Source: Chloroflexota bacterium
GTDB lineage: Bacteria; Chloroflexota; Anaerolineae; Anaerolineales; Anaerolineaceae
DNA length: 64,000 bases
Assembly (NCBI GenBank): GCA_016887485.1
Contig: CP069394.1
Coordinates: forward strand, 682,001 to 746,000
Reading direction: 5' to 3'
The notes beneath the pieces are model-generated. The model saw only the letters and a program-made list of their open reading frames with translations, made no database searches and had not been told where the DNA came from. Below are positions 48,961 through 51,944 of the stretch, one piece after another (position 1 is the first letter of the stretch; each line of letters starts with the position of its first letter). A program made the translations under genes and the position numbers.

Positions 48961-49929
48961 ATGAAGAGAGTTGCTGTACTAACCAGTGGAGGCGATGCGC
49001 CAGGAATGAACGCCGCTATCCGTTCAGTTATCCGTTGCGGTGTGGCTAAAGGTTGGATGATGTATGGTGTTAAAAATGGATATTCGGGACTGATCTCAGG
49101 GAATATCCGAGAAATGGGCACCCGTGATGTTGGCGGCATCCTCCAAAAGGGTGGTACTATCCTAGGTTCAGCCCGCTGTCTTGAATTCAAAACTGAGGAA
49201 GGTCGTCTCAAAGGGATTCGTGCCCTGCGGCAAATGGGCATTGACGCCCTGGTTGTAATTGGTGGGAATGGTTCCCAAACCGGTAATTATCATATTCATA
49301 AATTAGGATTCCCAACGGTTGGTATTGCATCCACGATTGATAATGACCTTTATGGGACTGAAATCACCATTGGCGTGGATACGGCATTGAATATTGCTCT
49401 CGAAGCGATTGACAGACTGAAAACAACTGCTACTTCTCACCAACGTGCGTTTTTGGTTGAGGTGATGGGCCGAGACTGTGGCTATCTTGCGTTGATGGCA
49501 GGCATTGCGGGTGGTGCTGAATATATCCTGCTGCCTGAGGTCGAAACAGACCCCGAGGAAGTTGCGGAGACATTACGACTGGCTTATGAGCATGGTAAAG
49601 AACATGCGATCATTGTGGTTGCTGAAGGAGCCAAATATAATGCAACAGCATTGATCGATTACTTTGACCAGCATCAGGATCGATTGGGTTTCAAAATCCG
49701 TGAGACCATCTTGGGACATGTCCAACGCGGCGGTGAACCCAGTGCGTATGATCGTATCCTGGCCAGCAAGTTCGGTGATGGTGCCATTGAAGCCATTGAC
49801 CGGGGTGAATTTGGTGTTCTGGTTGGGCAGAACAAAAATGAAATAACCACCGTTTCATTGGAAGAGGTGGTTTCTCATAAGAAAGAAATTTCGATGGATT
49901 TGGTCCGTCTGTCGAGGATCCTGGATTAG
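48961..49929 (+). CDS. pfkA: 6-phosphofructokinase (first copy)
   Basis: 322 aa, the compact bacterial PFK. GGDAPGMNAAIR opens the chain, the phosphoryl-donor loop reads GGNGSQTG (position 104 by E. coli numbering is Gly, as in ATP enzymes; position 103 is Asn not Asp), the catalytic segment is STIDNDL with Ser not Lys at 124, and MGRDCGYLAL and HVQRGGEPSAYDR bind fructose-6-phosphate. So ATP is the more likely donor. GAGG precedes the ATG. It is divergent from mscL and convergent with prfB. Confidence 0.9.
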   Translation: MKRVAVLTSGGDAPGMNAAIRSVIRCGVAKGWMMYGVKNGYSGLISGNIREMGTRDVGGILQKGGTILGSARCLEFKTEEGRLKGIRALRQMGIDALVVIGGNGSQTGNYHIHKLGFPTVGIASTIDNDLYGTEITIGVDTALNIALEAIDRLKTTATSHQRAFLVEVMGRDCGYLALMAGIAGGAEYILLPEVETDPEEVAETLRLAYEHGKEHAIIVVAEGAKYNATALIDYFDQHQDRLGFKIRETILGHVQRGGEPSAYDRILASKFGDGAIEAIDRGEFGVLVGQNKNEITTVSLEEVVSHKKEISMDLVRLSRILD

Positions 49930-49932
49930 TTC

Positions 49933-51016
49933 CTAGTCCACTTTACGGAGAAAAGCCTCGATAAAGGAGTCGAGATCACCATCCAAGACGGCTGAAGTGT
50001 CACCCATTTCAAAGTCCGTCCGATGATCTTTTACCAATTGATAGGGGTGGAGGACATAGGACCGGATTTGGGAACCCCATTCCGCCTTGGTGTATTCACC
50101 TCTTAGCTCGGAGAGTTTCTCTTCCTGGGCTTCCTGTTTGATCTCAAGTAAACGCGCTTTCAAAACACGAAGCGCGTTTTCTCTATTTTGGACCTGTGAG
50201 CGCTCATTCTGGCAGGTGACGACCAAGCCGGTGGGGATATGGGTCAGTCGAACCGCTGTAGCGTTCTTCTGCACGTTCTGACCGCCCGCGCCGGAAGATT
50301 TGTATACATCAATCTTGATGTCCTCGGCAGGAACATTGATTTCGTTGGTGTCCGCCATTTCAGGCAGCACCTCAACCAGGGCAAAGGAGGTGTGCCGGCG
50401 GTGGGCTGCGTCAAAGGGGGAGAGCCGTACTAACCGATGAACGCCTTTTTCAGGGCGCAAATAGCCATAGGCCAGCGGCCCGGTAACGGCAATTGTGACG
50501 CTCTTGATGCCAGCTTCTTCACCATCGGTCCGGTCAAGTATTTCAGCCTTGTAGCCGCGCCGCTCCGTCCAGCGGAGGTACATCCGTTCCAGCATGGCCG
50601 CCCAATCCTGGGAATCAGTCCCACCCGCGCCGGCGTGGATAGCCAGCAGGGCGTTACCGCGGTCATACTTGCCGGAGAGCAGGGTGTTCAATTCGAGGTG
50701 GTCAATTTCACCCTCGATGCTGGTGACTTCTTCGGCTAGCTCTTCCAGCATGGACTCCTCTGCGATTTCCAGCAGTTCGAGTGTATCTTCGGTTCGTTTT
50801 TTTAAGGCTTCGTAAGCGGTGATTTCGTTACGCAGATCCGATTGGCGGATCATGATCTTTTGAGCGTGCTCCCGGTTATCCCACAGGTTAGGGTTCTGGG
50901 CTTCTTTTTCCAGTCGGATCAGCTCATCTTTTTTATTCGCGAGGTCAAAGATGCTCCTGAAGGTTCAGCAGTTTTTGATATGCCTCATTGAGACGGGTAT
51001 CCAATTCAGTAGCCAT
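49933..51016 (-). CDS. prfB: Peptide chain release factor 2 with programmed +1 frameshift
   Basis: 360 aa when read through the frameshift. The first 23 codons start at ATG 51016 (MATELDTRLNEAYQKLLNLQ) and end at an in-frame TGA at 50947-50945 within CTT TGA C; the remaining 337 codons continue in the +1 frame. The SPF tripeptide (LSPFDAAHRR), which reads UGA/UAA, and the GGQ motif (SSGAGGQNVQK), which triggers hydrolysis, are both present. Downstream-only gene calls starting at ATG 50853 are truncated. GGAGG precedes the true ATG. The 3' end abuts convergent pfkA. Confidence 0.95.
50944..50958 (-). promoter_or_regulatory. prfB: prfB programmed frameshift site
   Basis: On the minus strand AGGAG (50958-50954), three bases CAT, then CTT TGA C (50950-50944). 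This is the canonical layout: an internal Shine-Dalgarno three bases before CTT, whose tRNA slips onto TTT when RF2 is scarce. It autoregulates RF2. Confidence 0.93.
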
Positions 51017-51032
51017 AATGTCCTCCAAATAA

Positions 51033-51944
51033 TTAATTCGCGATAATACCATCGACAAACGCTTCGGGATCGAAACGTCGTAAGTCGTCAATACCTTCAC
51101 CCAGGCCGGCATAGAGGATCGGTAGCCCTAATTGGGCTTTGATCGCAAAGGCCATACCACCTTTGGCGGATGAATCCAATTTAGCCAGGATGACGCCATC
51201 AAGTGTGACAGCCTCCTGGAAGGCTTTTGCCTGCTGCAGGGCGTTTTGACCCGTAGTAGCATCTAAAACCAGCCAGGTGGCGTGTGGAGCGCCCTCAAGG
51301 GCTTTCCCGCTGACCCGATAGACCTTCTTGATCTCTTCCATCAAATTGTATTTCGTATGCAGGCGGCCTGCTGTGTCAATAATCACCACATCCTTCTTGC
51401 GAGATATCGCCGAGGTGATGCCATCAAATGCCGCGGCGCCAGGATCTCCACCCGGCTGACCGGCCACCATGGGCACATCGACGCGTTCGGCCCAGACCTT
51501 CAGTTGGTCAATGGCTGCTGCACGGTAGGTATCTGCTGCCACCAGAAGCAAGGATTTGCCCTCCTCCTGGTAGAGATGCGCAAGTTTGGCCGCTGAGGTC
51601 GTTTTGCCTGAGCCATTCACACCCACTAGAATGATGACTGTGGGGTGCTTGGAGAAATCGGGAAAAACGGGCTCTGCCAAACGCTCAAGCAATTCATCCT
51701 TCAGAGCCTGCAGGACTTCATCGTTCCGGGTTAAGCCCTGTTCCTTAACGGCTAATCTGACCGCCTGGATCACGGAATCTGTTGTCTCAAAGCCCATGTC
51801 GGCCTGAAGCAGCAAGGCTTCCAGTTCATCCCAGGTGTCGTCGTTCAGCTCTGAGGTGCCCAGGAAATTAGCGATCCGTCCAAAGGTGACTTTGCGGGTC
51901 TTTTCGAGGCCCTTTTTCCATTTGTTGAAGATGTTTTCTGTCAT
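51033..51944 (-). CDS. ftsY: Signal recognition particle receptor FtsY
   Basis: 303 aa, the NG part only, without the acidic A domain of E. coli. GVNGSGKTTSAAKLA is G1, DTYRAAAIDQLKVWA, DTAGRLHTKYNLMEE and LDSSAKGG are G2 to G4. It receives SRP-ribosome complexes at the membrane. The start has no ribosome-binding site; TGTTATAAT ends nine bases before the ATG, so this gene may be leaderless, separated from rlmN upstream. Confidence 0.96.
   Translation of the reverse strand: MTENIFNKWKKGLEKTRKVTFGRIANFLGTSELNDDTWDELEALLLQADMGFETTDSVIQAVRLAVKEQGLTRNDEVLQALKDELLERLAEPVFPDFSKHPTVIILVGVNGSGKTTSAAKLAHLYQEEGKSLLLVAADTYRAAAIDQLKVWAERVDVPMVAGQPGGDPGAAAFDGITSAISRKKDVVIIDTAGRLHTKYNLMEEIKKVYRVSGKALEGAPHATWLVLDATTGQNALQQAKAFQEAVTLDGVILAKLDSSAKGGMAFAIKAQLGLPILYAGLGEGIDDLRRFDPEAFVDGIIAN

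Follow-up and report, generated by a model that had tools for sequence, protein, structure and literature searches.

The closest described counterparts of the locus examined here are the prfB genes of Escherichia coli (AGGGGGUAUCUU UGA C) and Flavobacterium johnsoniae (AGGAGGUAUCUU UGA C). In E. coli, a short reading frame (ORF0) contains a Shine-Dalgarno-like (SD-like) stretch whose end lies 3 nt upstream of CUU, followed by the slippery CUU_U, the stop codon UGA and a C, with the rest of release factor RF2 encoded in the +1 frame, and F. johnsoniae carries the same cassette with an AGGAG core (PMC8710568). According to PMC12421855 and PMC5009743, ample RF2 leads to termination at UGA-C, whereas scarce RF2 leads to a pause and a helix-aided slip from CUU to UUU; the mechanism is also covered in PMC8710568. 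A 2025 survey reported the motif in 8,164 of 12,753 genomes (64%), 98.6% of these with TGA, and linked low TGA use to keeping the motif (PMC12421855). The words Chloroflexi and Chloroflexota are absent from the main text of that survey, and our full-text literature search, which was non-exhaustive and is no proof of absence, returned no paper combining prfB, frameshift and Chloroflexota. Here, we describe a prfB locus from a Chloroflexota genome that shares the elements of both described cassettes, and we compare its 5' end with those of other members of the phylum.

Results

The window (the whole stretch of DNA analysed, 64,000 nucleotides) carries prfB on its minus strand. Direct reading, the list of open reading frames and the joined translation place ORF0 at 50948-51016 (23 codons, MATELDTRLNEAYQKLLNLQEHL), starting at ATG 51016, which is preceded by TTTGGAGGACATT and by a putative initiation Shine-Dalgarno sequence, GGAGGA, at 51021-51026 within TTTGGAGGACATTATG. 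The first-pass annotation had described 23 codons from this ATG ending in CTT TGA C, and both direct reading and pattern search showed this to be true to the base. The slippery CTT_T (50947-50950) consists of CTT (50950-50948) and the T of the premature TGA, which is codon 24 (50947-50945), and the C at 50944 completes the RF2-read TGAC (50944-50947), a poor terminator. An SD-like AGGAG inside ORF0, at 50954-50958, is the presumed stimulator of frameshifting; the spacer CAT separates it from CTT, so that it lies exactly three bases 5' of CTT, as had been claimed. The RF2 body (ORF1) continues in the +1 frame from 50946 to a terminal TAG at 49933, and the product joined over the shift has 360 aa.

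The identity of the downstream frame as RF2, also claimed beforehand, was borne out through to 49933 by the NCBIfam model TIGR00020 (prfB), to which the joined protein scored 496 bits against a cut-off of 370, with a match that spans the junction (residues 10-357). Pfam recognized PCRF and RF-1 domains, and the RF2 body contains the SPF and GGQ motifs. Models for RF1 scored below their cut-offs on this protein, and a separate RF1 gene elsewhere in the genome scores 486.9 bits against NF001859, a model for RF1 with a cut-off of 400. Directly 5' of prfB, on the same strand, lies ftsY (51033-51944, from the list of open reading frames and family search), whose stop is 16 nt before the prfB ATG. 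A convergent ORF on the plus strand (48961-49929), named phosphofructokinase-like from its translation, ends 3 bases from the prfB stop. No Rfam family reached an E-value of 1 over positions 49500-51500.

A naive ORF call starting at 50853 yields 306 aa, exactly 54 residues fewer than the joined product, in agreement with the earlier warning that automated calls starting there lose 54 or more residues. This warning applies to naive ORF callers. TIGR00020 itself carries the NCBI type 'exception', which designates families treated as programmed exceptions, the prfB frameshift being one such case.

The single 16S gene found in the same genome with the Rfam model ends GGATCACCTCCTTTC, so that an anti-Shine-Dalgarno sequence matching AGGAG is present; this sequence, CACCTCCTTTC, sits at the 3' end of the gene, where AGGAG can form five base pairs with it. 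When the pairing register is taken as reference, the last G of the AGGAGG equivalent falls 2 bases before CTT in the AGGAG of the window and 3 bases before it in the AGGGGG of E. coli. The spacing had been called canonical in the first-pass annotation, which holds for the raw distance but not for the anti-SD register, in which AGGAG is one base nearer to CTT than the E. coli stimulator.

Conservation was assessed by comparing prfB 5' ends in 195 genomes, comprising 50 of 61 near relatives and 145 more across the phylum. From the near relatives, 49 of the 50 matches over the cut-off were taken together with the partial match of genome G006, leaving out G017, whose match lies at a contig start. 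In the phylum-wide spread, 159 of 161 genomes had an RF2 match, and the best 150 were used, 5 of which had already been counted, leaving out the 9 weakest. The heptamer CTTTGAC was found at the same codon in 193 of the 195 loci, and such conservation speaks for a programmed frameshift that functions and against an error of sequencing. In a second set of 80 loci from named genomes, which overlaps the first in part and includes records of Bellilinea caldifistulae, Levilinea saccharolytica, Leptolinea and Brevefilum, CTTTGAC was present in 79. These named relatives are also the basis for assigning the phylum to Chloroflexota and the family to Anaerolineaceae. The three best matches to the window's RF2 in this set showed 92, 87 and 83% identity and come from two Anaerolineaceae MAGs and a Brevefilum MAG, a ranking from which records of the genome itself were possibly excluded. 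Variation in the base after the stop was seen in two loci, L120 (G089) with CTTTGAG and L308, the remaining locus of the named set, with CTTTGAT; elsewhere this base is nearly always C.

Within up to 110 codons past the shift in the same 193 loci, aspartate is encoded by GAC in only 1077 of 1847 cases (58.3%) and by GAT in 42%, and CTT accounts for only 340 of 2956 leucine codons (11.5%). Codon choice for these residues varies downstream but is nearly fixed at the site, indicating a constraint on nucleotides and not on residues, which fits a slip site followed by a weak terminator. By contrast, the string itself is only mildly unlikely: a search for AGGAGNNNCTTTGAC with up to one mismatch returned a single match in the whole window, at the prfB site and with 0 mismatches, with 0.24 matches expected by chance and at least one match in 23 of 100 shuffled windows. 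The site rises above chance because of its placement in prfB and its conservation across the phylum, with 193 of 195 loci retaining it.

Just one of the 195 loci showed a clean loss, L046 (G031:C1:2135800-2136800), from a single-contig genome of the same family, where prfB runs in a single frame at this position, with no CTTTGA and the upstream frame open; that G031 lives without the motif indicates that the motif is not indispensable. We considered whether motif loss is tied to high TGA use, for which the stop counts gave little support: among ORFs of at least 150 residues in 20 stretches of 20 kb per genome, TGA closed 99 of 283 in G031, a share close to the 98 of 299 in G047, a relative with the motif, and 59 of 271 in the genome of the window. 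Inside the window, 12 of 50 stops are TGA and 11 are TAG. Nor did prfB prove to avoid TGA at its own 3' end, where 129 distinct genes have 34 TGA, 34 TAG and 61 TAA stops.

These counts also bear on whether the motif could be a relic, still present in the gene of this species but without a role in regulating RF2. F. johnsoniae offers some precedent, since the motif is kept there at low efficiency and its removal had no obvious fitness cost (PMC12421855 and PMC8710568). Nevertheless, the slip-site bases are near-invariant across the phylum, which points to selection still acting on them. TGA is moreover the least used stop in the 20 stretches sampled from the genome of the window, in line with the association reported in the survey, although G047 keeps the motif with TGA at 98 of 299. 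Overall, we regard a relic as very improbable.

Production of RF2 by internal initiation at 50853, with the upstream frame as a mere leader, has in its favor that no ATG, GTG or TTG precedes ATG 50853 in the RF2 frame and that the 306-aa protein remains above the family threshold (456.6 bits to TIGR00020, cut-off 370). Against it, the RF2 profile, starting at its position 2, aligns with the last part of ORF0 and with the 31 codons between 50946 and 50854, and, besides the slip site conserved in the phylum, the leader peptide is conserved within the genus: the ORF0 peptides of the window's genus (its own and nine others) all end in LQEHL (10/10). Internal initiation as the source of RF2 therefore appears extremely unlikely. 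ORF0 spans 19-28 codons in 179 of 193 loci under a simple start-picking rule, and GGAG stands upstream of its ATG in all ten loci displayed for the window's genus. Lastly, although single-base length errors occur in draft genomes generally, a sequencing or assembly indel that makes an in-frame prfB look frameshifted is in effect refuted by the 193 of 195 genomes, each assembled separately, that change frame at this codon with an identical heptamer.

No RF2 match over the cut-off was found in 11 of the 61 near-relative genomes. Eight of these (G002-G005, G015, G032, G036 and G049), five of them from the window's genus, also had no ftsY match over its cut-off while an RF1-like match was present; G006 and G039 contain RF2 fragments beside ftsY, and in G008 the contig edge falls at ftsY, on the flank expected to carry prfB. 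A real loss of RF2 with TGA reassignment was considered for these 11 genomes and set aside, assembly gaps being the simpler account given the missing ftsY, the fragments and the contig edge, and the ftsY-prfB region is most likely missing from the eight assemblies. As a separate observation, the RF1-like match of G013 (G013:C3:295461-296495, minus strand), from the same genus, holds one in-frame TGA.

In the 193 loci with the canonical heptamer, the four bases ending three before CTT were GGTG in 73, GGAG in 62, GGGG in 36, GAGG in 14 and others in 8; C never occurs at the third of these positions, which holds A, G or T. Correspondingly, the codon two before CTT is GNG in 173 of the 193 loci and GCG in none of them, whereas GCG makes up 829 of 2812 (29.5%) of the GNG codons downstream in the same loci. 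The best pairing with the anti-SD placed the last G of the AGGAGG equivalent 5 bases before CTT in 73 loci, 2 in 66 and 3 in 37, while 11 loci fit 2 and 3 equally well and 6 are ambiguous. The phylum therefore mostly presents GGNG at a fixed place with a varying N, which implies anti-SD pairing in differing registers.

The classes are mixed inside families, with 24 GGAG and 3 GGTG loci in family f1 and 7 GGAG and 4 GGTG loci in family f12. On a FastTree phylogeny there were at least 36 changes of SD class and 33 of register, counts that are only rough as the tree was built from at most 135 residues per row (shortest 32) and the 8 of 193 loci with another SD were unlabelled. In these eight loci (L117 from G176, L032, L049, L083, L132, L135, L154 and L163), CTTTGAC is kept and the SD-like stretch is neither GGNG nor GAGG, so that the SD stimulator is not absolute; the stretch of L117, CCTCAACCGTCTTTGAC, contains no recognizable SD.

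Discussion

The anatomy of the site, the identity of RF2 and the conservation across the phylum support the view, advanced in the first-pass annotation, that this prfB keeps the autoregulatory +1 frameshift cassette, with shifting and autoregulation attributed to it by homology. We consider the site to be almost certainly a classical autoregulatory +1 programmed ribosomal frameshift of the RF2 gene, in which slippage and feedback would operate as in other bacteria. Under this model, ribosomes would start at ATG 51016, read 23 codons and reach UGA-C while tRNA-Leu occupies CUU in the P site. With plentiful RF2, termination at UGA-C would release a 23-aa peptide, whereas with scarce RF2 the ribosome would pause at UGA, the pairing of AGGAG with the 16S anti-SD would strain the P-site pairing and the tRNA would slip from CUU to UUU, after which GAC would be read next and the 360-aa RF2 produced.

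Frameshifting of RF2 is long known in kind, and the present case is real but ordinary; the variation in SD register alone may have gone unremarked so far, judging from a non-exhaustive literature search. Tentatively, and with some doubt, the sequence comparison suggests that the RF2 stimulator of Chloroflexota could usually be a GGNG held at a constant distance from CTT, in which N may be A, T or G, and not the AGGGGG consensus. If all the SD variants work, then either the position in the mRNA at which the mRNA-rRNA helix ends would matter and not the rRNA bases that are paired, or the registers would tune the strength of frameshifting. If true, this would be of direct relevance to the way in which short SD spacing drives the +1 slip, a subject on which the primary paper is reportedly that of Devaraj and Fredrick from 2010. 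In addition, the internal SD variants of these loci form a naturally occurring series with which the effect of SD register on frameshift efficiency could be tested.

With respect to annotation, the two frames of prfB in this genome should be merged across the shift to give the 360-aa product. The comparison also adds a well-sampled phylum with a near-universal switch (193 of 195 loci) and one clean loss, in G031, which belongs to the same family (Anaerolineaceae) as the genome of the window.

Compared with the described systems, the premature stop is codon 24 here and codon 26 in E. coli prfB, and the codon before CTT is CAT here and TAT in E. coli. The stimulator is AGGAG, with five potential pairs in a register one base nearer to CUU, in place of the AGGGGG of E. 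coli. F. johnsoniae has AGGAGG where the window has AGGAGC, and the AGGAG cores of these two genes therefore differ by one base in their distance to CUU.
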